From Elusimicrobiales bacterium (GTDB lineage Bacteria; Elusimicrobiota; Elusimicrobia; Elusimicrobiales; UBA9959): 43,775 nucleotides of DNA. The notes below the pieces were generated by a model. The model was given only the letters and a program-made list of their open reading frames with translations. It was not told the origin of the DNA and ran no database searches. This document shows, one piece after another, positions 24,630 through 41,919 of this stretch; within the stretch, counting starts at the first letter, position 1; each line of letters opens with the position of its first letter. A program made the position numbers and the translations under genes. The stretch covers positions 1 through 43,775 of the forward strand of contig JAMPXK010000017.1 of the NCBI GenBank assembly GCA_023701245.1. Reading direction: 5' to 3'.

Positions 24630-24651
24630 CCTGTTTTTAACGGCCGGCGGC

Positions 24652-25839: not shown

Positions 25840-25920
25840 TACGTTTACCCCCGGCAAAGGCGCTAATTACCCACATAGTCTTGCAGACGCAGGCGCGGTT
25901 GTCAATACGCCCAAAATAAA

Positions 25921-25945
25921 GACCCGCGGGAACTCCCCGCGGGTC
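25921..25945 (-). terminator. Terminator of udk
   Basis: A 10-bp perfect stem, GACCCGCGGG (25921-25930) with CCCGCGGGTC (25936-25945), loop of five. On the minus strand it is followed by TTTATTTTGG, so it ends the udk transcript. Confidence 0.8.
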
Positions 25946-25964
25946 TCTCTGCGGCCGAAGCGGC

Positions 25965-26606: not shown

Positions 26607-26678
26607 TTTATTCGCGGCCGCGTTCCGGCCCTACCTATGATACAAAAAAAGACAGGGGCCGGCACCGCCGCCCGACGT

Positions 26679-27653
26679 TCAATCAGGCGGGTTCGTGAGC
26701 CGTATTTCCAGCTGCACCCGGCGGCCCGCCTGTTCCTGCTCGGCGACGAAGGCGTTAAAAAGCTTCAGACAGCCGGGGCGCAGTTTCACGCAGCCGTCGG
26801 TGTCGCGCCAGCGGAAGTCGGCCGGCTCCGGGCGCCCGGCCGCGTCCGGAGACAGGAGGCGGGCGGGATCTTCCCACCTGTCGGTGTGCACGGCAAAGCC
26901 CGCGCGCCCGTAAGGACCGAAATAATACCTGGGATTATGCGAGAGCTGCCTGGCCTGCCTGGCCTTCGAGGCCTCGCTCGACGGCTCCGGCCGCCGTTCG
27001 AAGAAGGGGATCCCTTCGCCCTGCGTGCCGGCCTGCCAGCCTTCGGCCCACATCATATCCACCGCCAGCACGCCGGTCCCGGCCGGGAACCAGTCGCGGA
27101 AGGCCGCGGAGAAATATTTCTTCTTCGCCGCCGGATCGTAATCCCGGCCCAGGATCTCCGCGGCGGTCTCGGGGGTGACGCCGCGGCCCAGCAGTTCTAT
27201 CTCGTAAGTTTCAGGGGAGATATTGCGCAGGTCGTAAACTCCGGGCACGGTGGCGCCGTTGGTCTGGTCCTGCGGCAGATAATAGACCGTAGTCCCGCCT
27301 ATAACTCCGCCCAGCCAGCCCGCAGCGGGCGAGGTGGAGGTGACGCCGCGGCCCAGGGCTTCGCATTGGTAAACGCCGGCCTGTTTGCCGCGCTGCAGTT
27401 CAAAATTCATAACTCCCGGGCGGGTGCGGTCTTCGGGCAGCAGCAGCAGCGCACGCGAGATCGTGCCGGAAGAGGTCTTTAGCCCGTTGAGGCCCAGGGT
27501 CCTGACCCGGGACCGCAGTTCTGCCGTCAGCTCCGGCTGGGCCGGCCTGTTATAGGGGATCGCCGCGGGAACCAGGTCGGCGGCGGCGGGCTCGGCCGCC
27601 GGCAGCGGCGCCGGCGCGGCGGCCAGGATAAGTACAAGACAGATGTTTTTCAT
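26679..27653 (-). CDS. L,D-transpeptidase (YkuD)-like exported protein
   Basis: A 324-residue exported protein, signal peptide about 1-19. The C-terminal half carries the YkuD signature: His256 in AGFAVHTDRW and the catalytic Cys288 in DTDGCVKLRPG. Such enzymes cross-link peptidoglycan stem peptides or attach proteins to it. The N-terminal half (about 40-150) has no recognised domain. The HxT...DGC(V)K spacing fits, although the region around the His differs from canonical members, so catalytic competence is likely but unproven. The start has SD AAAGGA, and a TATAAT-like box lies about 35 bases further upstream. Confidence 0.83.
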   Translation of the reverse strand: MKNICLVLILAAAPAPLPAAEPAAADLVPAAIPYNRPAQPELTAELRSRVRTLGLNGLKTSSGTISRALLLLPEDRTRPGVMNFELQRGKQAGVYQCEALGRGVTSTSPAAGWLGGVIGGTTVYYLPQDQTNGATVPGVYDLRNISPETYEIELLGRGVTPETAAEILGRDYDPAAKKKYFSAAFRDWFPAGTGVLAVDMMWAEGWQAGTQGEGIPFFERRPEPSSEASKARQARQLSHNPRYYFGPYGRAGFAVHTDRWEDPARLLSPDAAGRPEPADFRWRDTDGCVKLRPGCLKLFNAFVAEQEQAGRRVQLEIRLTNPPD

Positions 27654-27762
27654 ATTGTCCTTTGCCGGAGGTAAGGTTATAATATAAAAATAGTCCGCGG
27701 CAGTTCCCGTTAACAGGCTAAAAGACCGGTTTTTAACCCGACACTACGTTGTCGGGTTGGTC

Positions 27763-27771
27763 TGCTATACT
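27763..27771 (+). promoter_or_regulatory. Extended -10 promoter, near-leaderless
   Basis: TGCTATACT at 27763-27771. Predicted +1 is 27778, one base before the ATG at 27779 (an ATG also starts at 27776). No SD. Confidence 0.5.
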
Positions 27772-27778
27772 TTTTATG

Positions 27779-29056
27779 ATGGACCTTCAGCAGAAATTAG
27801 AGATACTGGCGGATTCCGCCAAGTACGACGCCTCCTGCGCCTCCAGCGGCTCCAACCGCGGCGGGCGGGGCACGGGCGCCGCCCACCAGAGCGGCGTCTG
27901 CCACAGCTGGACGGCCGACGGCCGCTGCGTGTCGCTCCTGAAGATCCTGATGACCAACGAGTGCGTGTACGACTGCGCCTACTGCGTGAACCGCCGCTCC
28001 AACGACACCCCGCGCGCCGTCCTCGCCCCGGACGAAATAGCCGGCCTCACTTTCGAATTCTACAAGCGCAATTACATAGAGGGCCTGTTCCTAAGCTCGG
28101 GCATTACCGTTTCCCCGGACCGCACTATGGAGCTGATGCTGGAGGCCGTGCGCAAACTGCGCGAGACTTTCCATTTCAACGGCTACGTGCATATGAAGGT
28201 GATCCCCGGCGCCGACCAGGCGCTCATAGACCAGGCCGGGCTCTGGGCGGACCGCGTGAGCGTGAACATAGAACTGCCCAGCGACAAAAGCCTGCGCCTG
28301 CTGGCCCCCGGCAAGACCAAAGATACCGTACTGCGCCCCATGAACCGCCTGGCCCAGCGCATAGCCGCCCACAAGGACGAGGTGCGCACCATAAAAAGTT
28401 CCCCCGCCTACGCGCCGGCCGGGCAAAGCACCCAGCTTATAATCGGCGCCACTCCGGAAACAGACCGCGAGATAATAAAATTGAGCGAGGCGCTGTACGG
28501 CAAAATGGCCCTGAAGCGCGTCTACTATTCCGCCTTCGTCCCGGTCATGAAGGACAACCGCCTGCCGGTTCTGCGCGAGCCGCCGCTCCTGCGCGAGCAC
28601 CGCCTCTACCAGGCGGACTGGCTGCTGCGCTTCTACGGCTTCACCGCCGACGAACTGCTGGACGAAAAGCACCCGGGCCTGGACCTGAACTTCGACCCCA
28701 AGACGGTCTGGGCGCTGAACAATCTCGACAAGTTCCCGCTGGAGGTCAACAAGGCCTCCTACGAGGAGATCCTGCGCGTGCCCGGCATAGGCGTCACCTC
28801 GGCCAAGCGTATTGTGAGGGCGCGCCGGGCGGGGCCGCTAAAGCTGGACGACCTCAAGAAACTCGGCGTGGTGATGAAGCGGGCCATTTACTTTGTGACC
28901 GCCGGCGGCAAGTACGGCGGCATAAAGAAGGAAACCGAGGAGGCCATAAAGGTAAAGCTGCTGGAACACAAGAACCCCAACGGCCAGCTGGACCTGTTCG
29001 GGGAGAAAGAACTTGTAAAGGAGGGCCTGGAGGCCACCGTGACCGGCCAGTTGTAG
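27779..29056 (+). CDS. Radical SAM protein of the putative DNA modification/repair family (TIGR03916-like)
   Basis: A 425-residue protein. The Fe-S/SAM cluster site is Cys62-x3-Cys66-x2-Cys69 (ECVYDCAYCVNRRSND). SSGIT (about 106-110) and VNIELPSD continue the radical SAM barrel. The C-terminus has a helix-hairpin-helix DNA-binding element (about 321-350: LEVNKASYEEILRVPGIGVT, then SAKRIVRARR). This combination, and the partner gene 21 bases downstream, match the conserved pair named 'putative DNA modification/repair radical SAM protein' and 'DNA metabolism protein', whose reaction is, to my knowledge, not established. The start is set at the ATG after the extended -10. Confidence 0.9.
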   Translation: MDLQQKLEILADSAKYDASCASSGSNRGGRGTGAAHQSGVCHSWTADGRCVSLLKILMTNECVYDCAYCVNRRSNDTPRAVLAPDEIAGLTFEFYKRNYIEGLFLSSGITVSPDRTMELMLEAVRKLRETFHFNGYVHMKVIPGADQALIDQAGLWADRVSVNIELPSDKSLRLLAPGKTKDTVLRPMNRLAQRIAAHKDEVRTIKSSPAYAPAGQSTQLIIGATPETDREIIKLSEALYGKMALKRVYYSAFVPVMKDNRLPVLREPPLLREHRLYQADWLLRFYGFTADELLDEKHPGLDLNFDPKTVWALNNLDKFPLEVNKASYEEILRVPGIGVTSAKRIVRARRAGPLKLDDLKKLGVVMKRAIYFVTAGGKYGGIKKETEEAIKVKLLEHKNPNGQLDLFGEKELVKEGLEATVTGQL

Positions 29057-29077
29057 CCTGGCGCCGCGGCCAAAAGC

Positions 29078-29818
29078 ATGAGGACATACCTTTACGACGG
29101 TAATTTTGAAAGCTTCCTTACCGCGCTCTCGCTGGCGCTTGAGCACCAGGAGGATTGCGCCATCGCCCGGGCGGGAGGCGCGGGCGCTGAGGCCGGGCTT
29201 TTCTCGGAATTCGTGAATGCCGGGACGGACCCGGCGCGCGCCGCGGCCATGCGGGAATTTTTCGAGGAGCGGGGTTCCGCGGAAAGCTGGCATCACGCGC
29301 GCTTCGCCTTCCTGTCGGAAGCCGCCGGGGCCGAGGACGCGGTGCTGGCCTACGCGCGCCTCATAAAGGAAAAAGGCCGCGCCGCGGACGATATGCTGGC
29401 GGACCCGCGCGTTAAGAAAGTGCAGGACCTGTCCCGCTCGGTAGGCGGGGAGGCGCATATGTTCAAAGGCTTCGTGCGTTTCAAGGAACTCGCGGACAAA
29501 ACGCTTTACGCCCGGATAGAGCCGGACCACAATATACTGCCGCTGCTCACGGGGCATTTCCGGGACCGGCTGGGCGAGTTCAGCTGGATCATCCACGACG
29601 CGCGCCGCGGCCGGGCCGCGCTGTGCTCGGGCGGGCGGCTTATTTACGCGCCCATCACCCAGGAGAAGGCGCTGGAATTCGACGGCCGGGAGGCCGCGGT
29701 GCAGGCGCTGTGGCGGCACTTCTTCAAGACCGCCGCGATAAAAGAAAGGACCAACCCGCGGCTTCAGCGGCAGAACGTGCCGCTGAAGTACCGCAAGAAC
29801 CTCACCGAATTCGATTGA
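29078..29818 (+). CDS. DNA metabolism protein, TIGR03915/DUF4130 family
   Basis: A 246-residue partner of the radical SAM protein. It begins MRTYLYDGNFESFLTALSLA, the typical family start. It ends with the DUF4130 region: MFKGFVRFKELADKTLYARI, EPDHNILPLLTGHFRDR, WIIHDARRGRAALC and KYRKNLTEF. The family is predicted to act with the radical SAM enzyme on DNA, possibly as a glycosylase-like or damage-processing factor; that is an inference. The genes are 21 bases apart and co-oriented. The stop abuts the stop of the convergent permease (29818/29819). Confidence 0.88.
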   Translation: MRTYLYDGNFESFLTALSLALEHQEDCAIARAGGAGAEAGLFSEFVNAGTDPARAAAMREFFEERGSAESWHHARFAFLSEAAGAEDAVLAYARLIKEKGRAADDMLADPRVKKVQDLSRSVGGEAHMFKGFVRFKELADKTLYARIEPDHNILPLLTGHFRDRLGEFSWIIHDARRGRAALCSGGRLIYAPITQEKALEFDGREAAVQALWRHFFKTAAIKERTNPRLQRQNVPLKYRKNLTEFD

Positions 29819-31243
29819 TTACTTGGACGCCAGCACGAAGGACAGCAGGAAAGCCGCGCTGACCACGTACATCAGCGGGTGTATCTCCGCGAACTTGCGC
29901 CGCGCCAGTTTGATGGCCGTATAGGTGATGAAGCCGAAGCCTATGCCGTAGCTGATATTGTAGGTGAGCGGGATGCCTATCATGGTCAGAAAGGCCGGCA
30001 GGGCCTCGTCGAACCTATCCCAGTCTATCTCGCGCACCGTCTTCATGAGCAGCGAACCCACTATTATCAGCGCGCCGGCGGTGATGGGGTACACGAAATA
30101 GTCGCCGCAGCCGGGCGGGATCACGTCGGCCGGCGGCGTGAAGCCGCTGTTGACCAGCAGGCCGTAATGCTTGGAGTTCGGCAGGCGGTAGCCGCCGCCC
30201 ACCATCTGGATGACCGGAGAGAAGAAGGCGCAGAGCCCGAACAGGAGGCCCGTGACCACGGCGGAAAGGCCGGTGCGGCCGCCCTCGGCCACGCCCGCCG
30301 CCGACTCTATGTAGGTGGTAATGGAACTGGCGCCGAACAGGCCGCCGGCAGCGGCGGCGCCGGAGTCCACCAGCAGGATCTTCTTGATATCGCGCACTGT
30401 GCCGTCCTTATTGACGAAGCCGGCCTGCTCGCCCACGGCCACCACGGTCCCCATGGTGTCGAAAAAGTCCGTCAGCATGATGGCGAAGATGGTAAAGGCC
30501 AGGGCCGGCGTAAGCGCGTGGAACAGCGCCAGTTCCCCGTTCACCTGCTGGAAAGGCGCCCAGAAAGTGGAAAAGTCCGGCCGGGCGAAAGCGTTCTGCG
30601 GCACGGCCGTAACGCCCAGCAGCAGCGCGGCCGCGGTGGCGGCGAGTATCCCCCACAAAATATCGCCTTTTACCTTAGCGGCCATGAAGAAGGCCGCCAC
30701 GAAGAAACCAATAAGCGTCACCCAGACATAGGGCTGCGAAAAATCCCCGAGCGAGACCAGCGTGATGGGCGCCGGGCGGATGACGCCCCCCTCGTTGAGC
30801 CCGATGACGGTGATGAACAGGCCTATGCCCACGCCTATGGCGCGCTTGAGATTGAGCGGAATAGAATTCATCACCGCCTCGCGGAAGCCGGTGACCACCA
30901 GGGCGAGGATAAGCAGGCCTTCCACGAAGATCACCGACATGCCCACCTGCCACGGCACATTGGCCTGCTGGAAACCGATGACAGAGAAGGTAAGCACCGC
31001 GTTGATGCCCATGCCGCTGGCCAGCGCCAGCGGCCGGTTGGCGATCACGCCCATAAGCACGCTCATCAAGGCCGCGCCCAGGGCGGTGGCGGTGACGGCG
31101 CCCGCGAAAGGCACGCCGGCCGCCGAAAGGATGCCGGGGTTGACGAAGATGATATAGGCCATGGTCAGGAACGTAGCCGTTCCCGACAGAACCTCGGTCT
31201 TTACCGTGGTACCGCGTTCCGCGAGCTTAAATAAGCCGATCAT
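29819..31243 (-). CDS. NCS2-family purine (guanine/hypoxanthine) permease
   Basis: A 474-residue inner-membrane transporter of the AzgA/PbuG branch. The first segments read TEVLSGTATFLTMAYIIFVN and GMGINAVLTFSVI. The family motifs LTDFFDTMGTVVAVGEQAG and ASSITTYIESAAGVAEGGRT, the substrate-binding region, are intact. About 12-14 hydrophobic segments. Probable role: proton-driven uptake of purine bases for salvage. It is last in a minus-strand run coaD, CpaB-like protein, permease, with six bases between it and the preceding stop. Exact substrate not deducible. Confidence 0.93.
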   Translation of the reverse strand: MIGLFKLAERGTTVKTEVLSGTATFLTMAYIIFVNPGILSAAGVPFAGAVTATALGAALMSVLMGVIANRPLALASGMGINAVLTFSVIGFQQANVPWQVGMSVIFVEGLLILALVVTGFREAVMNSIPLNLKRAIGVGIGLFITVIGLNEGGVIRPAPITLVSLGDFSQPYVWVTLIGFFVAAFFMAAKVKGDILWGILAATAAALLLGVTAVPQNAFARPDFSTFWAPFQQVNGELALFHALTPALAFTIFAIMLTDFFDTMGTVVAVGEQAGFVNKDGTVRDIKKILLVDSGAAAAGGLFGASSITTYIESAAGVAEGGRTGLSAVVTGLLFGLCAFFSPVIQMVGGGYRLPNSKHYGLLVNSGFTPPADVIPPGCGDYFVYPITAGALIIVGSLLMKTVREIDWDRFDEALPAFLTMIGIPLTYNISYGIGFGFITYTAIKLARRKFAEIHPLMYVVSAAFLLSFVLASK

Positions 31244-31249
31244 CCGCGG

Positions 31250-32323
31250 TTACTTTATTATCTTCTTGAAACTGGCGGCTTCCAGCGCGCGGGACTCCGC
31301 GTCGCCGTCGCAGCGCGCGGCCAGGCGCAGGTCACGGCCCTGCACCGCGGCCAGCGCCGCGTACTGGGCCTGCACCGGGGTCAGGATGAGCCGCACCATG
31401 CCCTGCCCGGAGGCGTCGGCCTTGGAAACGTACATGACCGGGGCGGCCTGGATGATGGTGGCCGTTATCAGGTCTTTGGCGCCGCCTGCGCCGGCGTTCT
31501 CGTAAGTGACCATAAGGTCAACACGGTCGCCGCGCTTGAGGCCCTCCAGCTGCCAGGCCGGGAAGGCCATGGGCACCAGGCGGCTGCCGGCCTGCTGGCG
31601 CGGGGCCGCGAAATAGTCGGCGGAAAAAGCCCCGTTTTCCGGACGCCGTGCCGGAGCGTCGGCGAACAGCGCGGCCAGGGCCTCTTCCTGGTTGCGCAGC
31701 ACCGCAGCGGCTTTTTCGTAGAAGGTCACAGGGCTGCCCACGTCGTAAGTTTTTTCCAGCGCGTCAAGCTCGGCCAGCGCCTTGGCGAAGCTGGCGAAAA
31801 CCGCGTCTCCGCGCCCGCCGAAAGAACCGGCCAGCCGCTCGCGGCGCAGTGCCGCCAGCGCCTTATCCAGGCGCGTCAGGGCAGCGGTGCAGGCCGGGTA
31901 CAGGAATTTGTGGGGCAGGCCCAGGCCGCCGGTTTTGGCCGGGCGGGTTTTACGCACCAGCTCGGAGAACTCGTCCAGGGCCGCGAGCGGCTCCCGCCAC
32001 AGGCGGGCCTCGTTCCAGGTCTCTTTGTTAACCTGTACCTCGCGCGCGGTCATTGAGGAGACCTCCCCCGCCAGCCAGGCCGGGGCGGTCATGGTCTCCC
32101 TGCCTTTCGCGCAGCGGAACTTATACACGGCGGGAACACCGCCCTTAAGGTATTCGAAGAATAGCTCGCCTTTCTTGCTGTAGCAGTCTATCTCCTCCAG
32201 CAGGGCTTCGGTGCGGTTAAGGGCGGCCTTGGCCTCGGCTGCCTCTTCGTCGGCGGCTCGCAGCGGCGCGGTCAGCGGGGCCAGCAGCAGGAGCGCCAGA
32301 ACCAGAGAATATTTGTTCGTCAT
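31250..32323 (-). CDS. Secreted protein with CpaB/RcpC-like C-terminal domain
   Basis: A 357-residue exported protein; start at ATG 32323, overlapping the coaD stop by ATGA and preceded by GGGAGAG. Signal peptide about 1-23. The N-terminal two thirds are helical, Ala/Leu/Glu-rich, with Cys pairs (EIDCYSKKG, YKFRCAKG). The last 110 residues (LEGLKRGDRVDLMVTYENAG, ITATIIQAAPVMYVSKAD, VRLILTPVQAQYAALAAVQG, DLRLAARC) match the pattern of the C-terminal domain of Flp-pilus proteins CpaB/RcpC. The SAF domain that normally precedes it is not evident, and no other Flp-pilus gene is in the window. Role unknown. Confidence 0.75.
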   Translation of the reverse strand: MTNKYSLVLALLLLAPLTAPLRAADEEAAEAKAALNRTEALLEEIDCYSKKGELFFEYLKGGVPAVYKFRCAKGRETMTAPAWLAGEVSSMTAREVQVNKETWNEARLWREPLAALDEFSELVRKTRPAKTGGLGLPHKFLYPACTAALTRLDKALAALRRERLAGSFGGRGDAVFASFAKALAELDALEKTYDVGSPVTFYEKAAAVLRNQEEALAALFADAPARRPENGAFSADYFAAPRQQAGSRLVPMAFPAWQLEGLKRGDRVDLMVTYENAGAGGAKDLITATIIQAAPVMYVSKADASGQGMVRLILTPVQAQYAALAAVQGRDLRLAARCDGDAESRALEAASFKKIIK

Positions 32324-32805
32324 TTGTCTCTCCCGGCCTTTATGGCCTTTACCACGCAAGGCGGCACCAGTTTGGAAACGTCCCCCTTGAAATGCGCTAT
32401 GTCGCGCACCACGCTGGAGGAAAGATAGGAATAGCGCACCCGCGGCATGAAGAACACCGTTTCGATGTGCCGGTAAAGGGTGCGGTTGACCGCGGCGATC
32501 TGGAATTCGTACTCCAGGTCGGAAATGGCGCGCAGGCCCCTTATGACCACGTCCGTCTTTTTCTTTTTCACGTAGTCCACCAGCAGCCCCTCGAAGCAGT
32601 CCACGCTGACGTTCTTTCTGCCCTTGAGGGCCCGGCGCAGCATTTCGACGCGCTCCTCCACCGAGAACAGGTGTTTTTTGCCGCTGTGCACGAACACGGA
32701 AACTATGACGTGGTCGAAGATCTTGGCCGCCCGGCCTATGATATCGAGGTGCCCGAAGGTGACCGGGTCGAAACTCCCGGGGTAAACCGCGATTCTCTTT
32801 TTCAT
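32320..32805 (-). CDS. coaD: Phosphopantetheine adenylyltransferase
   Basis: A 161-residue enzyme for the fourth step of coenzyme A synthesis (4'-phosphopantetheine + ATP to dephospho-CoA). The nucleotidyltransferase motif is YPGSFDPVTFGHLDII (GxFDPxTxGH, residues 10-19). VVIRGLRAISDLEYEFQ and the C-terminal YSYLSSSVVRDIA (ISSS-type motif) are intact. Length normal. I start at the ATG at 32805 (MKKRIAVYPG); no SD, but a perfect TATAAT puts +1 three bases upstream. Confidence 0.96.
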   Translation of the reverse strand: MKKRIAVYPGSFDPVTFGHLDIIGRAAKIFDHVIVSVFVHSGKKHLFSVEERVEMLRRALKGRKNVSVDCFEGLLVDYVKKKKTDVVIRGLRAISDLEYEFQIAAVNRTLYRHIETVFFMPRVRYSYLSSSVVRDIAHFKGDVSKLVPPCVVKAIKAGRDK

Positions 32806-32814
32806 GGTAAGCCC

Positions 32815-32820
32815 ATTATA
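32815..32820 (-). promoter_or_regulatory. coaD -10 box, near-leaderless
   Basis: On the minus strand a perfect TATAAT (32820-32815). Predicted +1 is 32808, three bases before the ATG (32805). No convincing -35 at 16-18 bases. Confidence 0.5.
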
Positions 32821-32858
32821 CAAATTTCATTTCAAAGCGGATTTTGCCGGAAAAGTTG

Positions 32859-32864
32859 TATTAT
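32859..32864 (+). promoter_or_regulatory. -10 box of the WG-repeat gene
   Basis: TATTAT at 32859-32864. Predicted +1 is 32871, two bases before the ATG at 32873. A GGGGA tract sits between the two, so an SD-led start from a more upstream promoter is also possible. Divergent from the coaD -10, 39 bases away. Confidence 0.4.
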
Positions 32865-32872
32865 TGGGGAAT

Positions 32873-33832
32873 ATGATACTACGGTTATTACTGGCGGCGC
32901 TGCTGCTTCCGGCCGCGGCCGGAGCGCAGGAGCTGATCCCCTTTAACTCCGGCAAGAAGTGGGGCTACGCCGCGCCGGGCGGCAAGCTGCGCCTGCCGGC
33001 GCGCTACGACGCCGCCGAACCTTTCAGCGAAGGCCTGGCCCTGGTGCGCCAGGGAGCCTCCTACGGCTTCATCGACAAGACAGGCAAGACCGTTATCCCG
33101 GTAAAATACCAGTCCGCCGGGTCCTTCTCCGAAGGCTGCGCCCCGGTAAAGACGCGCGGCCTCTGGGGCTGCGTGAACCGCGAGAACAAACCGCAGGTCC
33201 CTTTCGAATACGAACTGCTGCTGCCCTTTAAAGAAGGCGCCGCGCCGGCCAGGAAGGACGGCCGCTGGGGCCTGCTGCTCAAGGATTCCCGCGAGTTCCG
33301 CGGCGGCATCTACGAGGAGATCTACCCGCCCAGCGAAGGCCTGGCCCGGGTGCGCGTAAACGGCAAATACGGCTACATAGACCTCTCCGGCCGGGAAGCC
33401 CTGCCGCCCGTCTACGCCGAGGCTTTCCCCTTCGCCGGCGGTTTCGCCACGGCCCGCCTGGGCGAAAAATACGGTTTTATCAGCCGCGCCACCCTGGCTT
33501 TCAAGGAAAAGCCCTACGTGGGCATAGGCCCTTACACCGGCAAGCTCGCGCACGCCCAGAGCCTGGCGGCCGAGGGACGCTGCGGCTACATAGACGCGGA
33601 AGGGCGCGAGGCCATAGCGTTCAATTTCGCCATGTGCGCCTCTTTTGAAGAGGGCCTGGCGCCGGTAATGCGGGATTTTAAAAGCGGGTGGGGCTACGCC
33701 GACCCGACCGGCCGGGTGGTCATCTATTTCAAGTACGACCAGGTGACGGGTTTCCGGGGAGGCCTGGCCAAGGTCACCCTCAAGAACAGGACCTTTTACA
33801 TAGACGCCAAAGGGTTCGAGTACAAAAAATAG
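32873..33832 (+). CDS. Secreted WG-repeat protein
   Basis: A 319-residue exported protein, signal peptide MILRLLLAALLLPAAAGAQ. The mature chain is built of six or seven WG repeats of about 45 residues, each with a (W/Y)G(Y/F/L/C) start and an FSEGLA-type turn. Examples are KKWGYAAPGGKLRLPARYD, ASYGFIDKTGKTVIPVKYQ, GLWGCVNRENKPQVPFEYE and GKYGYIDLSGREALPPVY. WG proteins are secreted or periplasmic beta-repeat proteins thought to mediate binding; no enzymatic motif is present. The ATG at 32873 is chosen because it opens the signal peptide. Confidence 0.9.
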   Translation: MILRLLLAALLLPAAAGAQELIPFNSGKKWGYAAPGGKLRLPARYDAAEPFSEGLALVRQGASYGFIDKTGKTVIPVKYQSAGSFSEGCAPVKTRGLWGCVNRENKPQVPFEYELLLPFKEGAAPARKDGRWGLLLKDSREFRGGIYEEIYPPSEGLARVRVNGKYGYIDLSGREALPPVYAEAFPFAGGFATARLGEKYGFISRATLAFKEKPYVGIGPYTGKLAHAQSLAAEGRCGYIDAEGREAIAFNFAMCASFEEGLAPVMRDFKSGWGYADPTGRVVIYFKYDQVTGFRGGLAKVTLKNRTFYIDAKGFEYKK

Positions 33833-33835
33833 GGC

Positions 33836-33882
33836 AAAAAGAAAGGGCCCGCGAGAAACCCACTAAGAGGGGCCGCGGGCCC
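33836..33882 (-). ncRNA. Predicted small RNA, copy 1
   Basis: Predicted minus-strand transcript of about 47 nt running 33882 to 33836. It begins on the first base of a 9-bp stem, GGGCCCGCG (complement of 33874-33882) pairing with CGCGGGCCC (complement of 33845-33853). The interior can form a second short CCC/GGG helix closing the loop UCUUAGU. It ends UUUCUUUUU, an intrinsic terminator tail. A complete promoter precedes it (33889-33916). A second copy is at 36221-36268 with an identical loop and a compensated stem. It lies between the convergent WG-repeat and TPR-like genes, so it could also be read merely as the terminator of the latter. Confidence 0.65.
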
Positions 33883-33888
33883 ATTCAT

Positions 33889-33916
33889 ATTATAGCAGAC
33901 GCTATTGACTTGTCAA
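33889..33916 (-). promoter_or_regulatory. Promoter of small RNA copy 1
   Basis: On the minus strand a perfect TTGACA (33916-33911), 16-base spacer, and TGCTATAAT, an extended, perfect -10 (hexamer 33894-33889). It is the best sigma-70 match seen in the window. Predicted +1 is 33882, the first stem base. Confidence 0.75.
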
Positions 33917-33950
33917 GGCCTGCGCAGGACCGGGCGGCCAAGGAACAGGC

Positions 33951-34796
33951 CTAGTCGCGCGCCATGTGCCGCCAGGTCTGCGTCTGCCACGCCGGGGTCC
34001 CGAACAGCCGCACCTGCTCCTGGGCCGCGGTCATGGCCCCCTGCGTTTCGGCCAGTTCCGGCGCCAATATGCTGGAGATCTCCACTACGGCGTTATCCGC
34101 GCTCAGCGACCCCCTGAAACGTATGGGGCTGCGGGTACCCACGCCCATGCCGGACATGCCCCCGGGGGAACTGCCCTCGAAACGGCGTCCGCGCACCTTG
34201 CCCGTGCCATAGATGGTCTTTGGGAAGTCCCAGCAGTGCATGCTGATGGTCAGATCGTCGCCGCGGATCTCGAACTCGTAGCGCCAGCAGTCCAGGCCGC
34301 TGCCCCAGCTGCCCCTGTAATCCGCCGTGCCGTGGCGTTTGGACGGCGCGGCCTCCTCGGCCGGTTTGCTTTTGCCGGCCGGCCGCCCGGCCATAAAAAA
34401 TCGCTTATCCTCGGCCGCCTCTTCGAAGCGCTTGGCCGATTCCAGGGCGTTGGCGCGGTTGTAGTAGCACTGCGTCCACCACGGGGCTATCTTTATGGCT
34501 TCCCAGTAAATGCGGGCCGCCTTGTCGAAATCCGCGTCGTTGACGGCGTCCAGGTGCACGGCCATGGCCTTGATAAAGAATTTTTTGGCTTCGGTGGGGA
34601 CCTTGGGCCTGGCCGTCATGCCGCTGGCGAACCGGATAAGCTCCAGGCGCAGCTCGGGGTTATCCGGGTCATCGTTCACGGAGGCCAGCAGGGTCAGGAA
34701 CCGCTCCTGTTCTTTTACATAAGCCGGGTCCAGCGCCCGGGCCGGGATGGCCAGCGGCGCCAGCAGCGCAAAGAACAGGAGCAGCCTGCTTATCAT
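33951..34796 (-). CDS. Secreted TPR-like protein
   Basis: A 281-residue exported protein. The ATG at 34796 opens the signal peptide MISRLLLFFALLAPLAIPARA; upstream in-frame codons would bury it. Residues about 25-140 are helical with a TPR-like pair (FDKAARIYWEAIKIAPWWTQ, CYYNRANALESAKRFEEAAED). A beta-rich C-terminal region follows (YRGSWGSGLDCWRYEFEIRG, DDLTISMHCWDFPKTIYGTG) with two Trp-associated Cys. No named family recognised for the latter. Small RNA copy 1 lies just beyond its stop. A TTGACA-containing promoter is upstream. Confidence 0.77.
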   Translation of the reverse strand: MISRLLLFFALLAPLAIPARALDPAYVKEQERFLTLLASVNDDPDNPELRLELIRFASGMTARPKVPTEAKKFFIKAMAVHLDAVNDADFDKAARIYWEAIKIAPWWTQCYYNRANALESAKRFEEAAEDKRFFMAGRPAGKSKPAEEAAPSKRHGTADYRGSWGSGLDCWRYEFEIRGDDLTISMHCWDFPKTIYGTGKVRGRRFEGSSPGGMSGMGVGTRSPIRFRGSLSADNAVVEISSILAPELAETQGAMTAAQEQVRLFGTPAWQTQTWRHMARD

Positions 34797-34878
34797 AGAC
34801 GAAAAGCCGCCTTCACACGGACGCGCCTGCCGCCCGGAAACCATGAGACCATAGATTGTAACTCCCCCTAACCTAGGG

Positions 34879-34906
34879 TTTATCATTTCAATTCCGCCGG
34901 TGTCAA
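34879..34906 (-). promoter_or_regulatory. Candidate promoter of the TPR-like gene
   Basis: On the minus strand TTGACA (34906-34901), 16 bases, then GATAAA (34884-34879, four of six matches to the -10). Predicted +1 is about 34872. The sequence around the -35 resembles that at the second small RNA promoter (GGTGTCAA plus GACC on the plus strand). Confidence 0.4.
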
Positions 34907-34918
34907 TAGACCTCCAAT

Positions 34919-34948
34919 TTGCCGGGGAGGCCCGGGTAAAGTTATAAT
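34919..34948 (+). promoter_or_regulatory. Promoter of the S1-domain gene
   Basis: TTGCCG (34919-34924), 18-base spacer, perfect TATAAT (34943-34948). Predicted +1 is about 34955, leaving a 38-base leader with AGAGG before the ATG at 34993. Confidence 0.6.
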
Positions 34949-34992
34949 GTATAGATTAGCAGCCGCAGCAACCCCTATCGCAAGAGGCACAC

Positions 34993-36192
34993 ATGCACAC
35001 CAACGACCAGCACGGCAACGAGCAAGAAGAAAATTTCGCGGAGATGTTCGAGGAGACCTATAAAGAACCTTCCAGGCTGGAGCCCGGCCACAAAGTAGAG
35101 GCGGCCATAGTAAAGCTGACCCCGGAGTGGGCGCTCATCGAAGTGGGCGGCAAAGGCGAAGGCTACGTGGACATCAACGAACTCAAGGACGCCGAGGGCA
35201 ACCTCATCGCCCGCGAGGGCGACAAGCTGCGCGCCTATTTCCTGCGCTCGGAAGAGGGCGAGATGCGCTTTACCACCCGCATAGGCTCCGGCCCCGCGGC
35301 CCGCGCGCAGATAGAGGACTCTTTCAAGAACCACCTGGCCGTGGAAGGCACCATAGCCCGGGAGGTCAAGGGCGGTTTCGAAGTGGCCATCGGCGGCGTG
35401 CGCGCGTTCTGCCCCTTCTCGCAGATGGGAACGCGCCGCGACGAGAACAAGGCCGAATACGTCGGCAAGGCCCTCTGGTTCGAGGTCATAGAATTCGGCG
35501 GGCGCAACATCGTGCTGTCGCGCCGCAGCATCGTGGACGCCGAGCGGCGCGAGCGCGCCGCGGTCCTGAAAGAAGCTCTAAAAGAGGGCGACCGGGTAAA
35601 AGGCGTGGTCACCTCGCTGCAGAAATTCGGCGCCTTCGTCGACATCGGCGGGATAGAAGGGCTGCTGCCGGTCTCGGAGCTGGCCTGGGGCCGCACCGAA
35701 AAAGTTTCAGACCTGCTTTCCGTGGGTCAGCCGGTAGAGGTGATGATAAAGCGCCTGGACTGGCAGAACGAAAAGATCTCGCTCAGCCTCAAAGACGTGC
35801 TGCCCAACCCCTGGGACACGGCGGCCGAAAACTGGCCTTCCGGCTCCTACCACACCGGCCGGGTATCGCGCCTGGCGCCCTTCGGCGCCTTCATCGCCCT
35901 GGGCGAAGGCGTAGACGGCCTCATCCATGTTTCCCGCCTTGGCGGCGGCGAACGCCGCATCGGGCACCCCGAAGAGGTGCTGAAGGTGGGCCAGGAAATA
36001 GAGGTAAAGGTGGAATCCGTGGACCCCGCGGCCAGGAAGATCTCCCTGGTGCCGGCCACCGTAAGCCGGGCCGAGGACGAGCACACCGAAACCATGGCCA
36101 AGTACCGCGGCAAAGCCGAAGCCGGCTCGCCCGCCATGGGCTCCATGGGAGAGACCCTGAAGAAGGCCCTGGAACAGAAGAACAGGATATAA
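34993..36192 (+). CDS. rpsA: S1 RNA-binding domain protein (ribosomal protein S1-like, four domains)
   Basis: A 399-residue cytoplasmic protein with four OB-fold S1 domains: about 20-90 (KVEAAIVKLTPEWALIEVGG), 110-180 (EGTIAREVKGGFEVAIGGVR), 195-270 (DRVKGVVTSLQKFGAFVDIG, then GIEGLLPVSEL) and 280-355 (YHTGRVSRLAPFGAFIALGE, then GVDGLIHVSRL). An acidic N-terminus and a flexible tail flank them. S1 proteins help mRNA bind the 30S subunit. E. coli S1 has six domains; four-domain forms are usual in many other phyla. The symbol assumes it is the S1 equivalent; another S1-domain regulator is possible. Confidence 0.88.
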   Translation: MHTNDQHGNEQEENFAEMFEETYKEPSRLEPGHKVEAAIVKLTPEWALIEVGGKGEGYVDINELKDAEGNLIAREGDKLRAYFLRSEEGEMRFTTRIGSGPAARAQIEDSFKNHLAVEGTIAREVKGGFEVAIGGVRAFCPFSQMGTRRDENKAEYVGKALWFEVIEFGGRNIVLSRRSIVDAERRERAAVLKEALKEGDRVKGVVTSLQKFGAFVDIGGIEGLLPVSELAWGRTEKVSDLLSVGQPVEVMIKRLDWQNEKISLSLKDVLPNPWDTAAENWPSGSYHTGRVSRLAPFGAFIALGEGVDGLIHVSRLGGGERRIGHPEEVLKVGQEIEVKVESVDPAARKISLVPATVSRAEDEHTETMAKYRGKAEAGSPAMGSMGETLKKALEQKNRI

Positions 36193-36195
36193 AAC

Positions 36196-36220
36196 ACCGG
36201 CCCCTGGAAAGGCGGCCGGT
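36196..36220. terminator. Hairpin after the S1-domain gene
   Basis: ACCGGCC (36196-36202) and GGCCGGT (36214-36220), a 7-bp perfect stem just after the S1 stop. It is followed by AAAAATG on the plus strand and by GTTTTATAT on the minus strand. Likely a weak terminator, more so for minus-strand transcription. Confidence 0.35.
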
Positions 36221-36268
36221 AAAAATGAAAGTGCCCGCGAGAAACCCACTAAGAGGGGCCGCGGGCAC
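36221..36268 (-). ncRNA. Predicted small RNA, copy 2
   Basis: Minus-strand counterpart of 33836-33882. It begins on the first base of the stem at 36268, GUGCCCGCG pairing with CGCGGGCAC. The loop is identical to copy 1 and the tail is UUUCAUUUUU. Relative to copy 1 one G-C stem pair has become U-A on both arms, so pairing is preserved. It lies between the S1-domain gene and the convergent methionine synthase genes. Conservation with copy 1 covers the hairpin, the tail and the promoter hexamers. Confidence 0.65.
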
Positions 36269-36274
36269 ATTCAT

Positions 36275-36302
36275 AGTATAGCAGGCCTATTTCAGGTGTC
36301 AA
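36275..36302 (-). promoter_or_regulatory. Promoter of small RNA copy 2
   Basis: On the minus strand a perfect TTGACA (36302-36297), 16-base spacer, and TGCTATACT, an extended -10 (hexamer 36280-36275). Predicted +1 is 36268, again the first stem base. Spacing is identical to copy 1 though the spacer sequence differs. Confidence 0.72.
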
Positions 36303-36324
36303 GACCCAATTTGGACCTACCTGG

Positions 36325-37113
36325 TCAGATGCCGAAATAGACCGCTTTCGGGTTGTGGAACACTATGGCGGACACGGAGGCCTCCGGGTCCATCATGAGA
36401 CCTTCGGTCAGTTTTATGCCCGCGTCGGCGTCGGGCCGCAGCAGGTCGAACAGCGGTTTCTGGTTGGCCAGGTCCGGGCACACGGGGTAGCCGAAGGAAT
36501 ATCTTTTGCCGCGGTATTTGCCTTTATGCAGCGGCCGGGCCGGGACGGGTTCGGCTATCCCCCACTCCTTCCTGATGCGGTAATGCAGCACTTCCGCGAA
36601 AGCCTCGGCCAGCATCAGCGCCAGCGCCTCCACAAGATAAGACCTCACATAATTGCCGGCCGCCCGCTCGCGCCGCGAGAAGGCCATTACGCCCTCGCCG
36701 CAGGTTACTGCCAGCAGGGCCGCGTAATCCCTGCGCCCGGCGCCGGCGGCCGCGGCGAAGTCGGCCAGGCAGAGCCGGTCGCCTGCGGCCTGGCGGGGAA
36801 AGGCGAAATTCGCCAGCGTCTCGCCGCCGGGCCCGTAAAAGAGCAGATTGTCGCCGTCGGCGTTGACCGGGAAAGTCCGGTAAACGCCGCGGGCCTTGAT
36901 GAGGCCTTTAGAGATGATCTCTTCCTTCAGCGCGGCCAGCAGGACGGCGGTCTCCCGGGCTTTTTCTTCCTGCCCTTTTTTGAGCTTAAGGAAGCGCAGA
37001 TTGAACAGCCCCTCGTCCATATTGTCGAACAGTTCCGGCAGCGGCTGCTCCACGTAATGCCGCTCCAGGTCCGCCGGGACCGGGATGTCGTCCGGGCGCA
37101 AAAGGTCCGACAT
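36325..37113 (-). CDS. Methionine synthase activation domain as a separate protein
   Basis: A 262-residue protein equal to the C-terminal reactivation domain of cobalamin-dependent MetH. Motifs seen are GKYRGKRYSFGYPVCPDLAN and GIKLTEGLMMDPEASVSAIV, then FHNPKAVYFGI at the end. The domain binds SAM and reductively remethylates inactive cob(II)alamin. Its ATG overlaps the stop of the main MetH gene by one base (TAATG), so the two chains are made in step. The domain is complete, so this is a genuine split rather than a frameshift; no remnant linker is visible. Confidence 0.9.
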   Translation of the reverse strand: MSDLLRPDDIPVPADLERHYVEQPLPELFDNMDEGLFNLRFLKLKKGQEEKARETAVLLAALKEEIISKGLIKARGVYRTFPVNADGDNLLFYGPGGETLANFAFPRQAAGDRLCLADFAAAAGAGRRDYAALLAVTCGEGVMAFSRRERAAGNYVRSYLVEALALMLAEAFAEVLHYRIRKEWGIAEPVPARPLHKGKYRGKRYSFGYPVCPDLANQKPLFDLLRPDADAGIKLTEGLMMDPEASVSAIVFHNPKAVYFGI

Positions 37114-39629
37114 TATTTCGCCGCCCCCAGCTTAAGCGCGTAATTCAGCCCTTCCATGGCGTCCTTGGCGTAGAACACCGTGCCGCCGTAAGCGGGGGCG
37201 ATGTTGGAGGCGGTGAACTTCTCCGTCAGGGCGGCGCCGCCCACCAGCAGGGTGGCTTTCACGCCGGCGCGGGCAAGTTCCCTGGCGGTTATGGTCATCT
37301 GCTCGCAGGAGCGCACCAGCAGCCCTGAAAGACCTATGAGGTCGGGTTTGGACCTGGCCGCGGCGGCGGCTATCTCTTCTGGCGGCACCTTTACGCCCAG
37401 GTCCTCCACCTCGAAACCGTTGCTCTCGAAAATGATGGAGACCAGGTTCTTGCCGATATCGTGCACGTCCCCCTTCACCGTAGCCAGCAGCAGCCGGCCC
37501 CGCTTGGGGGACTTGTTGGCTTTAAGCGCCGGCTCCAGCGCGGTCACCGCCGCCTTGGCGGCCTCGGCGCTCTGCAGCACCTCGGTCACTATCAGGTCGC
37601 CGCAGGCGAACTGCTTGCCCACTTCGGCCATGGCCCGCATCACGGGACCGTTGATGATGCTCAGCGGGTGCTCGGTTTTCAGCAGTTCCAGCACGCAGGC
37701 CTCTACGCCGGCGCGGGTGCCGTTGAGCACGCAGAGGCGCAGCCGCTCGCCGGGTGGCGCGTCCTGCGCGGCCGGCGCGGCGGGCCCTTTCTTGGCGTCG
37801 CGGTAGCGGGCCGCGAAGGCCTGCGCGGCGTCGGGCCGGCGCGCGAAGATCAGGTCCTCGGCCAGCGCCTTTTCCTCCGCCGGGATGGCGGTGTAGCGTT
37901 TGAGCTTTTCGATGTTGACTATGGCCAGGTCCAGGCCGGCCTTTACGGCGTGGTGCAGGAAGACGGAATTCAGCACTTCGCGCGACGCCGGCGGCAGCCC
38001 GAAAGAAACGTTGCTCACGCCCAGGATGGTCTTAACGCCGGGGAATTCCCGCTTGATGGTCTCTATGGCTTTTATGGTCTCATGGGCGGTCCTGGCGTGC
38101 TCGCCGCCCACGGCCACCGGGAAGACCAGCGTGTCGAAGATTATGTCCTCAGCCCTGAGGCCGCAATCCCGGGTAAGGAACGCGTAGGCGCGGCGCGCTA
38201 TGGCGGTTTTCCGCTCGGCGTCCAGGGGCAGGCCGTGCGCCTTATCCTCGTCTATGCAGCCGAAGACCAGCTTGGCGCCGTAGGTTTTCACCAGTTCGGC
38301 GGCGGCGCGCGGCTTGTCGGTCCCGAATTCGAAATTGACGGAGTTGAGCAGCGCTTTGCCGGGCGAGGTCTTGAGGACCTCTTCCATCACGGCCGTGTCG
38401 GTGGTGTCCGTCATGAGCGGCAGGCGCACGGCGCGGGCCAGGCGCGGGGCGAACAGTTTCACGTCGGCCAGCTCGTCGCGCTCCGGATTGGCCAGGCAGA
38501 GGTCCAGGACATGGGCCCCGGCGGCCGCCTGGGCCTTGCCCAGGGCCAGGGCGCCGTCCCAGTCGCCGGCGCCTACCATATCCCGGAATTTCTTGGAACC
38601 TATGGAATTGTTGCGTTCCCCCACCATCAGCGGCGGCTCTATCTCGTCGTAAAACAGCGCTTCCGTGCCGGCCACCACCCAGGGGGCCGCGGGGCGCGGG
38701 GCGCGGGGTTTTATGCCTTTGACGGCCTGCGCCAGGGCCTTGATGTGTTCGGGCCTGGTACCGCAGCAGCCGCCGGCGGCGTTCAGCAGGCCGGCCCGGG
38801 CGTAGCCGGCCATTACCGCGGAAAATTTTTCGGGCGTCTCCAGGTAGCGGCCCTTTTCGTCGGGCAGGCCCGCGTTGGGCATGGCGAAGACCGGGTACTG
38901 CGCCCTGGCGGCCAGGCGCTCCAGCCGCAGCCCCAGGCCTTCCGGCCCAGTGGAGCAGTTAAACCCTATGGCGGCCAGCGGGAAATGTTCCACCGCCGCG
39001 TAGAAAGCCTCCGCGTCGTGGCCGGAAAGCATCTTATTGCTGTCGTCCATGGTGGCCGAGACCACCACCGGGACCTCGCGGCCCGTTTTTTTGAAGCCGA
39101 AGCGGACGGCGGCCAGGGCCGCCTTCAGGTTAAGGGTGTCGTGGGCGGTCTCTATCAGCAGCAGGTCGGCGCCGCCTTCCAGCAGGGCGTCTATCTGCTC
39201 CAGGTAAATGCCGCGCAGGGCGTCGAAGGTAAGCCCGCCCGTCACGAAGAGAGCCTTGTTGGTGGGCCCCACGGAGCCGGCCACGTAGCGGCGGCGGCCG
39301 GCCTGGGAGAACTTGTCCGCGGCCGCGCGGGCGAGGCGGGCGGAAGCCAGGTTGAAGTCCCGCACTTTCCCGGCCAGGCCGTACTCCGCCAGCACCGCGG
39401 CGTTGGCGCCGAAGGTGTTGGTCTCTATAAAATCGGCGCCGGCGGCCAGGTAATCCTCGTGGATCCGGGCCACCACGTCGGCCCTGGAAACGGAGAGCAT
39501 CTCGTTAAGCCCCTCGTGGCCGGCATAATCCGCCTCCTTGAGGCCGAAGTCCTGAAGATAGGTGCCCATGGCGCCGTCAAAGACCGGAACGCCTTGCGCG
39601 AAAAGTTTCTTTATTTCCTCGTTGGTCAT
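37113..39629 (-). CDS. metH: Cobalamin-dependent methionine synthase, lacking the activation domain
   Basis: An 838-residue enzyme methylating homocysteine from methyltetrahydrofolate. Order: homocysteine-binding domain (FDGAMGTYLQ at about 18; zinc ligands in GFNCSTGPEG and GGCCGTRPEH, the latter near 289); pterin-binding domain (about 330-600, VGERNNSIGSKKFR); cobalamin cap and binding domain with DVHDIGKNLV (His about 723) and GLSGLLVRS. The usual fourth domain is encoded by the next gene. SD GAGGGACC. It follows tatD by 10 bases. Confidence 0.96.
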   Translation of the reverse strand: MTNEEIKKLFAQGVPVFDGAMGTYLQDFGLKEADYAGHEGLNEMLSVSRADVVARIHEDYLAAGADFIETNTFGANAAVLAEYGLAGKVRDFNLASARLARAAADKFSQAGRRRYVAGSVGPTNKALFVTGGLTFDALRGIYLEQIDALLEGGADLLLIETAHDTLNLKAALAAVRFGFKKTGREVPVVVSATMDDSNKMLSGHDAEAFYAAVEHFPLAAIGFNCSTGPEGLGLRLERLAARAQYPVFAMPNAGLPDEKGRYLETPEKFSAVMAGYARAGLLNAAGGCCGTRPEHIKALAQAVKGIKPRAPRPAAPWVVAGTEALFYDEIEPPLMVGERNNSIGSKKFRDMVGAGDWDGALALGKAQAAAGAHVLDLCLANPERDELADVKLFAPRLARAVRLPLMTDTTDTAVMEEVLKTSPGKALLNSVNFEFGTDKPRAAAELVKTYGAKLVFGCIDEDKAHGLPLDAERKTAIARRAYAFLTRDCGLRAEDIIFDTLVFPVAVGGEHARTAHETIKAIETIKREFPGVKTILGVSNVSFGLPPASREVLNSVFLHHAVKAGLDLAIVNIEKLKRYTAIPAEEKALAEDLIFARRPDAAQAFAARYRDAKKGPAAPAAQDAPPGERLRLCVLNGTRAGVEACVLELLKTEHPLSIINGPVMRAMAEVGKQFACGDLIVTEVLQSAEAAKAAVTALEPALKANKSPKRGRLLLATVKGDVHDIGKNLVSIIFESNGFEVEDLGVKVPPEEIAAAAARSKPDLIGLSGLLVRSCEQMTITARELARAGVKATLLVGGAALTEKFTASNIAPAYGGTVFYAKDAMEGLNYALKLGAAK

Positions 39630-39639
39630 GGTCCCTCTG

Positions 39640-40440
39640 TTAGAAAGTTCCGAACAGGTCGAAAGCGTTGGCGGTGGTCCTGTCGGCCACCTGGCCGTTG
39701 CTCAGGCCCAGGTGGCCGGCCACCATGGCGGCTATCTCCGGGATGAAGGCCGGGTCGTTGCGCTGGCCGCGCGCGCCCTGCGGCGGCAGGTAAGGACAAT
39801 CGGTCTCCAGGATTATCCTGTCCGGCCCGGCCTTCTTTATGGTCTCGCGCAGTTCCTCGTTCTTCTTGTAGGTGAAGGTGCCGTTCACGCCCAGCAGCAG
39901 CCCCATATCCAGGCCGGCCTTGGCGTCCTTCCACCCTCCGGAAAAGCAATGCAGCACCCCGCGGAATTTCCTGGCCGGGCTGTAATTCCACTCTTTCAGG
40001 GCGGTCAGCAGGTCGGCGTAGGCGTCCTGGGCCGGGGTTTTGCCGTTGCGGGCGTGGAACACGGCCGGCTTGCCGAACCTGGCGCAGAGCGGCAGCTGCG
40101 CGTCGAGCAGGGCCAGCTGCTCCTGCCTGCTGCCGATGTCCCACCAGTAATCTATCCCCACCTCGCCCAGCGCCGCGGCGCAGGGTTTGGCCATGAAGCT
40201 TTCCAGCCGCGCGAAGACGTCGGACGGCAGCGTCCGGGTGTATTCCGGGTGCGCCCCGAAAGCGCAGGCTATTTTGCCGGGGTACCTGGCGCAGAGCTCT
40301 TCTCCCTGCTGCCATTCTCCGGGCTGGCAGGCGATCTCCACCACCTTCTCCACCCCGGCCGCGAACACGCGCGCGAGCACGTCGGCACGGTCCGCGTCGA
40401 AAGCCTTGTCGTTGAGATGCGTGTGAGTGTCGATAAGCAT
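39640..40440 (-). CDS. tatD: TatD family metal-dependent deoxyribonuclease
   Basis: A 266-residue TIM-barrel hydrolase. Metal ligands are in MLIDTHTHLNDKAF (His6, His8), ALGEVGIDYWW (Glu), VFHARN (His), VLHCFSGG (His) and LETDCPYLPP (Asp). These are the six signature blocks of TatD/YcfH enzymes, which act as 3'-5' DNases in repair or DNA turnover. The C-terminus TTANAFDLFGTF is typical. Followed by metH after 10 bases. Cruciform repeat C lies upstream, between it and prfB. No strong SD (CAGGATTTAAATG). Confidence 0.94.
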   Translation of the reverse strand: MLIDTHTHLNDKAFDADRADVLARVFAAGVEKVVEIACQPGEWQQGEELCARYPGKIACAFGAHPEYTRTLPSDVFARLESFMAKPCAAALGEVGIDYWWDIGSRQEQLALLDAQLPLCARFGKPAVFHARNGKTPAQDAYADLLTALKEWNYSPARKFRGVLHCFSGGWKDAKAGLDMGLLLGVNGTFTYKKNEELRETIKKAGPDRIILETDCPYLPPQGARGQRNDPAFIPEIAAMVAGHLGLSNGQVADRTTANAFDLFGTF

Positions 40441-40482
40441 TTAAATCCTGTACAAGAAAGCCGGCTGGCGAACAAAGGGAGC

Positions 40483-40634
40483 GGGTGGCGAGGGTATGCC
40501 CTCCGCGGGCCTTCGCGCAGGCCCAAGCTTGCGTAGCGCGAGGGCCGGGTGGAGCGAAGCGACACTGCAGTGTGAGGAGCGGCGCGCACGGTGTGCGCGA
40601 CCGCGTGCCCGCGGAGGGCATATCCTTGCCACCC
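40483..40634. repeat. Cruciform repeat, copy C
   Basis: The ends are a 28-bp inverted repeat with two mismatches (40483-40510 with 40607-40634), sharing GGATATGCC with copy A. Inside are a GGGCC/GGCCC hairpin (40508-40525), the core GCTTGCGTAGCGC (40527-40539), an extra ACACTGCAGTGT palindrome (40562-40573), and the hairpin CGCGCAC-GGT-GTGCGCG (40583-40599). It lies between prfB and tatD, both minus strand. Confidence 0.75.
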
Positions 40635-40664
40635 GCCGCGAACTCGCAAGCCTGCCGGTCTCCT

Positions 40665-41789: not shown

Positions 41790-41796
41790 ACTTTTA

Positions 41797-41872
41797 GGGG
41801 ACGCTGTTGACTATTTGACTATTTTCCAGGATGGCGAAGGTAGCGGATAGTCAAATAGTCAACAACGTCCCC
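41797..41872. repeat. 26-bp inverted repeat with internal TTGACTAT tandem octamers
   Basis: The left arm 41797-41822 and right arm 41847-41872 pair over 26 bases with one mismatch, spaced by 24. Each arm has GGGGACG at its outer end and two tandem copies of TTGACTAT. GGGGAC...GTCCCC ends recall REP/REP-associated-transposase hairpins. It lies between the divergent prfB and chorismate mutase genes. Confidence 0.7.
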
Positions 41873-41878
41873 ATTTAT

Positions 41879-41906
41879 TTTACAATTTTATTTCGGGCAG
41901 TATTTT
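41879..41906 (+). promoter_or_regulatory. Candidate promoter of the aromatic operon
   Basis: TTTACA (41879-41884), 16-base spacer, TATTTT (41901-41906). Predicted +1 is about 41913, seven bases before the ATG at 41920. No SD, so again a very short leader. Confidence 0.4.
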
Positions 41907-41919
41907 AATAGAATTCTAT

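Follow-up and report, generated by a model that had tools for sequence, protein, structure and literature searches.

A probable family of short, promoter-bearing hairpin RNA genes in a genus of the Elusimicrobiota

The window analysed here, 43,775 nucleotides of contig JAMPXK010000017.1 from an Elusimicrobiales bacterium (assembly GCA_023701245.1), carries on its minus strand two copies of a short unit made of a promoter, a GC-rich hairpin and a U-rich tail. A preliminary description of one copy had proposed a self-contained small RNA gene, and a genus-wide family, a kept 16-base promoter spacer and a covarying stem now support that proposal, so that we regard an independent small RNA gene family, here called sRNA1, as highly probable. 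The fuller reading, in which this stand-alone family acts in trans through recognition of its shape, is put forward tentatively, at a little under an even chance. sRNA1 is an uncatalogued family, and since it is found throughout one genus, the RNA seems to matter to these cells. Occurring in genomes in which Hfq, CsrA and 6S RNA were not detected, it may serve as an entry point to RNA regulation in Elusimicrobiota and as a clean test of whether an RNA acts with little beyond a terminator hairpin, and the promoter-plus-terminator logic used here finds such genes without expression data.

The copy first described (copy 2, 33836-33916) is a real unit, and its promoter, GC stem and tail were all located in the sequence. 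Its sigma-70-type promoter (33889..33916, minus strand) has TTGACA at 33916-33911 and, after a spacer of 16 bases, TATAAT at 33894-33889; the spacer ends in TGC, which makes an extended -10 element, and six bases separate TATAAT from the stem. The preliminary description, which read 16 bases and TGCTATAAT after the -35 element, counted the TGC, the last three bases of the spacer, twice. The predicted 47-nt RNA (33836..33882, minus strand, both ends being estimates) begins with the 5' arm of the outer stem P1 (GGGCCCGCG, 33874..33882, minus strand), which pairs with the 3' arm (CGCGGGCCC, 33845..33853, minus strand), both arms being supported by covariation. It closes with an intrinsic-terminator U tail (TTTCTTTTT, 33836..33844, minus strand) that is read from the sequence and corresponds to T-rich columns in homologues. 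A palindrome, TTGACAAGTCAA (33905..33916, unstranded), lies across the -35 element and is a possible regulator site. The RNA folds into the 9-bp GC outer stem, inner helices of 3 bp and 2 bp, a CUU triloop, a bulged U and a 3' bulge UUUCU ahead of the U tail, with a free energy of -26.7 kcal/mol (z -4.17) that none of 200 shuffles equalled. The promoter had also been called the best sigma-70 promoter of the window. A search of the full window for TTGACA-N14..20-TATAAT gave this single occurrence, and 100 shuffles gave none; the site is also the sole one matching at 12 of 12 positions in scans of 1-20000 and 30000-43775, the stretch 20001-29999 being covered by the exact-pattern search only. 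The 10-letter loop string by itself is unremarkable, with two matches at no more than one mismatch, a result reached in 50 of 100 shuffles.

The loop had been said to be kept in a second copy, and it is indeed the same there, yet this understated the case, as the second copy is a complete unit with a promoter of its own. This copy 1 (36222-36306, minus strand) consists of promoter, hairpin and tail and is 87% identical to copy 2 over 85 nt. Its promoter (36275..36302, minus strand) has TTGACA, a 16-base spacer with TGC at its end, and TATACT, and its predicted RNA (36222..36268, minus strand) has the loop of copy 2, a U-rich tail and a stem in which one outer G-C pair of copy 2 is replaced by a compensating U-A pair; the spacer and flanks have diverged. 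The family model matches copy 2 at 33833-33884 with 80.1 bits and copy 1 at 36219-36270 with 72.4 bits. The two copies lie 2.4 kb apart with two genes in between, one encoding an S1 domain and the other having no Pfam match, and a BLAST search of the bacterium's own genome with a 105-base query (33826-33930) returned the query itself, copy 1 and two promoter-only matches. From these strong extended -10 promoters, RNA polymerase would be expected to begin at 33882 and 36268, give or take a base or two, and to stop in the U tail about 47 nt on; the terminator hairpin would then make up almost all of the transcript.

The same promoter-containing 105-base query gave matches in 31 of 61 genomes, the bacterium's own included, many of them to the promoter only. 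A covariance model of the RNA alone (R1) was built from 35 RNA segments without the promoter, aligned by MAFFT and not by structure, and run on 340 genomes of the phylum, 74 of which had a match at E <= 0.01 (32 of 32 in the genus, 14 of the 27 others in the family and 28 of the remaining 281). We inspected 84 of the 85 R1 matches of at least 30.1 bits together with their upstream DNA, leaving out G028:C51:313022 (30.5 bits). A promoter is present in all 78 matches scoring at least 36.4 bits, with a spacer of 16 bases in each. Scores overlap below this, where a rejected match (G024, 35.9 bits) exceeds an accepted one (G157, 34.6 bits) and the promoter decided. The 79 accepted matches set a lower bound for sRNA1, in that the promoter is also present at two members of lower score, G030:C93 at 24.0 bits and G033:C31 at 25.3 bits. 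Counting genomes in which the promoter was seen, sRNA1 is represented in all 32 genomes of the genus and in 10 of the 27 other family genomes (nine with accepted matches, plus G033). At the three matches inspected outside the family (G209, G123 and G160, from the 28 genomes with matches there), the promoter is absent.

Among the 79 accepted matches the -35 element is TTGACA in 77, TTGACG in one and TTGACT in one; the spacer is exactly 16 bases in all 79 (15-18 were tested), and all 79 have the extended TG. The stem begins 6-8 bases past the -10 element in 77; in the remaining two an additional hairpin intervenes, and the conserved stem begins 31 or 37 bases past the -10 element. The training sequences of R1 were drawn mostly from the query that included the promoter, and thus the independent evidence for the promoter is that of the 44 accepted matches outside the training set, which carry it too. 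The covariance-model search that the preliminary description had suggested as a check thus returned a conserved promoter spacing and covarying stem pairs across the genus, and homologues keeping hairpin and tail without the promoter, which it had named as evidence against a gene, were seen only in five inspected matches of 30.1 to 35.9 bits that resemble plain terminators. The unit might instead be read as the plain intrinsic terminator of the minus-strand gene upstream, preceded by a promoter that arose by chance. The hairpin and U tail would be plausible in that role, and the median distance from the end of the nearest upstream ORF to the RNA is 56 bases; the exact 16-base spacer in all of the 78 top-scoring matches and the promoter of copy 1 in the window nevertheless make this reading very improbable. 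An extra hairpin between promoter and conserved stem was also observed as a feature of two other genera of the family (G145, G157 and G033).

Accepted copies number one to three per genome in 41 genomes, and 28 of the 41 have more than one; tandem pairs occur in six genomes (G004, G005, G009, G015, G025 and G028). Having two or more related genes per genome, some of them in tandem, sRNA1 resembles known sibling sRNAs. Several copies per genome at several loci would also be expected of a dispersed repeat (of the REP or MITE kind) or a mobile element that happened to hold a promoter. We consider this scarcely credible, however, in that the copies are few, many sit at shared positions, and their spacers have diverged with the functional parts kept; furthermore, sRNA1 had no match in phage or plasmid records at the sensitivity used, and its exact degenerate pattern had none in viral contigs.

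The fold of the family was examined in two alignments. In that of the 35 segments, 98.2% of cells pair under the named structure, as against 32-56% under slid structures; 6 of 12 pairs are changed on both sides, and the covariation score was reached by none of 500 shuffles. In the other, of 29 rows picked from the 79 for complete pairing, standard loop sizes and distinctness, 8 of 14 pairs are changed on both sides, again with 0 of 500 shuffles. A parser applied to all 79 matches found an outer stem of 9 pairs in 72 and of 7-8 in 7, followed in order by a short joint, the 3-bp helix P2, the 2-bp helix P3, the triloop, a 3' bulge of 0-2 nt, the 3' strand of P2 and a 3' bulge of 3-5 nt before the outer stem closes. 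Both P3 pairs are present in 66 of 79; P3 is CU/AG in 27 copies and UU/AA in 38, its outer pair being C-G in 27 and U-A in 40, and these P3 counts are supportive and not decisive, as the parser maximises pairing and a helix of two pairs is weak. The same P3, triloop and bulge also come out of the free-energy fold computed for the window copy. The paired changes of letters thus show the outer stem to be under selection as a fold in these sequences, and the inner helix with its offset bulges appears to be so likewise, less firmly.

The surroundings of the copies were surveyed using ORFs called by a simple script, so that the counts are approximate. Of 78 copies, 73 share their orientation with the nearest upstream ORF, and 52 of 77 have a convergent ORF as their nearest downstream neighbour. 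Per Pfam and NCBIfam searches of the window proteins, the upstream ORF is metH in 26 copies, and in 15 it is an ABC-F-like ATPase, for which two ABC_tran stretches and ABC_tran_CTD were found in the one member checked, the label ABC-F being our own reading. In 31 copies a convergent WG-repeat gene is nearest on the downstream side. Both conserved neighbours are represented in the window, where an ORF for the C-terminal activation domain of metH (36325..37113, minus strand, PF02965) lies just upstream of copy 1 and a WG-repeat protein gene (32804..33832, plus strand, PF14903) is convergent with copy 2. In five genomes the metH locus has two sRNA1 copies about 120-170 bases apart. The sRNA1 hairpin may also terminate the upstream co-oriented gene. 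This intergenic placement, with its prevailing orientations as far as crude ORF calls give them, would suit an action in cis, in which a short, highly transcribed unit insulates its neighbours or affects supercoiling and the RNA is a by-product. For that purpose any terminator would be enough and paired changes that keep the stem sequence and inner fold would be unneeded, and the same RNA recurs at unrelated loci; we accordingly give the cis reading a low probability. We also observed that metH in the window (36325-39629) is split into two ORFs of 838 and 262 aa, with the activation domain apart; the split recurs in a number of genus genomes, and others have metH as one undivided ORF of roughly 1100-1170 aa. 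Separately, a GGAC(C/T)TTTTTTGGG(T/C)C-like element lies directly ahead of the -35 element in 16 of 79 copies, many of them behind metH, and is possibly a regulator or UP site.

Sequence conservation was profiled over 66 distinct genus sequences, ungapped and anchored on the -10 element. Information is near zero from -90 to about -45, reaches 2 bits in TTGAC with a milder GGG ahead of it, drops to 0.1-0.6 across most of the spacer, and rises to 1.5-2 bits over most of CTGCTA..T. The 5' arm and the greater part of the inner hairpin also have high values. Across the 3' half of the RNA, where indels blur the ungapped alignment, the values are lower, at 0.2-1.4; they climb once more in the U tail and disappear past it, from about +57. 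We take the RNA to be non-coding, because the triplet at the start of the stem varies (ATG in 26 of 79) and the 3' bulge has indels of 1-2 nt; a leaderless mini-ORF was rejected on the same grounds. With its own promoter at a fixed distance, terminator features in the sequence, a covarying structure and a non-coding sequence, sRNA1 has the features of a small RNA gene.

How such an RNA would act is a matter of lower confidence. Recognition of the folded shape is the reading we favour, somewhat short of an even chance, because the conserved letters are nearly all paired, because the loop letters differ between copies and genomes with the fold retained, and because apart from the U tail no free stretch exceeds 5 bases. 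The variable loop letters also weaken the argument of the preliminary description from the keeping of the loop. sRNA1 would then work in trans, with a protein recognising its folded hairpin as a ligand or a decoy, and the several gene copies would supply dosage or separate control. A search for mRNA leaders with the sRNA1 hairpin found none at E <= 0.1 in 32 genomes, using a tight model that could miss a diverged leader; the matches listed were, by position, copies of sRNA1 or of a second small RNA (sRNA2, below). This result weighs mildly against the protein-binding reading.

The main rival of shape recognition is an antisense action, independent of Hfq, in which the stand-alone RNA would pair with mRNAs through its apical loop or its 5' arm CCGCGGCCC. 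This arm keeps its letters as well as its pairing, ranks with the best-conserved stretches of the family where it runs from the stem into CCC, and could be used for base pairing, a point against the shape reading. Pairing with targets also has a precedent in sibling sRNAs. OmrA and OmrB of enterobacteria are tandem siblings of 82-88 nt, separately transcribed, Hfq-dependent and antisense to their targets; they were identified in part via orphan promoters and terminators, and an insertion element splits the pair in one E. coli strain (PMC4211561). sRNA1 is like this pair in having closely related genes in one genome, some in tandem, with the window pair being separated by genes; it is unlike them in being about 47 nt long, in lacking a long free seed and in occurring where Hfq was not detected. 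Given that the loop letters vary and that the conserved letters are nearly all paired, and with Hfq undetected in the 32 genus genomes (0/32, by a search that detected 5 of 14 controls), we judge antisense action unlikely, though well ahead of the other rivals, and retain shape recognition as the preferred reading.

Shape recognition by a protein would place sRNA1 near the CsrB/RsmZ-type sponges, which titrate a protein, and sRNA1 would act alike if its hairpin does so. In contrast to these sponges, it has a single hairpin, the window RNA contains no GGA motif, and CsrA was not detected in any of the 32 genus genomes (0/32, by a search that detected 3 of 14 controls). A further rival has sRNA1 standing in for 6S RNA: as a short RNA bound to RNA polymerase or the ribosome, it would regulate globally. 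Like 6S, sRNA1 is a single structured RNA, and it is present genus-wide and has a strong promoter; moreover, neither the window nor any of 41 genomes, of which 25 belong to the genus and 16 to the order, matched the 6S model (RF00013), though that model detected only 5 of 14 controls. Nevertheless, sRNA1 measures 47 nt as against 187 model positions for 6S, it matches no Rfam family at gathering score, and 47 nt is small for a mimic of an open promoter. We hold the 6S stand-in to be improbable, on a par with the cis action.

No Rfam family was found at gathering score in the window. Anti-hemB (RF02837) matched in each of three regions of 2.8 kb at 27.5, 21.7 and 21.1 bits, below its gathering score of 49.5; this weak likeness recurs where the sRNA1 hairpin and the next downstream hairpin are scanned together, and a number of further hairpin sRNA families give similarly weak matches in those regions. 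The small-region matches to potC, MEG3_2, ncr1175, STnc310, suhB, SorX and others were all under their gathering scores and were set aside, and a scan of 48.5 kb from 16 loci together, with stricter filters, gave nothing at E <= 0.1. Taken by these comparisons, sRNA1 does not have the features of an Hfq-dependent sRNA, a CsrA sponge, a 6S RNA, anti-hemB or a plain terminator. Among the papers listed by searches of the available literature under the name Elusimicrobia, none was relevant to small RNAs of the phylum.

The promoter of sRNA1 has features in common with other sites. Of the 79 copies, 11 have a palindrome, TTGACNNGTCAA, that overlaps the -35 element, and a further 4 have it immediately ahead of that element; the palindrome occurs 16 times in 752,731 bases of sRNA1 loci, 15 of these at sRNA1 promoters. 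It also overlaps or sits just upstream of the -35 element at promoters of sRNA2 and of c-di-GMP riboswitches, which suggests that one regulator may be common to the promoters bearing it. The extended promoter itself is present at eight sites in the bacterium's own genome: copy 1 and copy 2, two sites before c-di-GMP-I riboswitches, one before sRNA2, and three that, by eye, apparently precede genes.

sRNA2 is a hairpin RNA gene of about 100 nt on contig C6 of the same genome (2500 onward). Matches spanning its promoter and first hairpin were found in 30 of 32 genus genomes, G008 and G021 being the two without, and an invariant CACCUUAUCGACGGU is present in 29 aligned sequences of the 30. It is flanked by an MltA/3D-domain gene and a convergent SpoU methylase gene, the families being checked at one locus. 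sRNA2 has the extended -10 promoter in common with sRNA1, and its 37-nt hairpin aligns without gaps to sRNA1 copies having a 4-nt bulge, allows the same helix and loop sizes, and has 10 of 14 core letters in common with the nearest sRNA1 copy. Unlike sRNA1, it has another outer stem, a separate terminator and a length of about 100 nt. Kinship of the two was considered and is unconfirmed by an independent model: R3, built from sRNA1 only, misses sRNA2 at 30 loci with default filters and at 10 of those 30 with filters off, and a core likeness of 10/14 was reached by 1.2% or 8.5% of random cores with the same pairing under two random schemes. A joint model (R2) was built from both RNAs, and its matches therefore say nothing on kinship. 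We treat the resemblance as a lead only. Following that lead, the offset-bulge hairpin module of sRNA1 and sRNA2 might be the recognition element of an RNA-binding regulator, in a lineage-specific global system of RNA-protein control, among bacteria with no Hfq, CsrA or 6S detected; this is a speculative and rather doubtful extension of the shape reading, which, if true, would describe a global control system whose RNA can be a bare terminator hairpin. Behind sRNA2, at about 1625-1680 of the C6 locus, we also observed a dispersed repeat that accounts for most of the query matches listed there, with up to 27 per genome.
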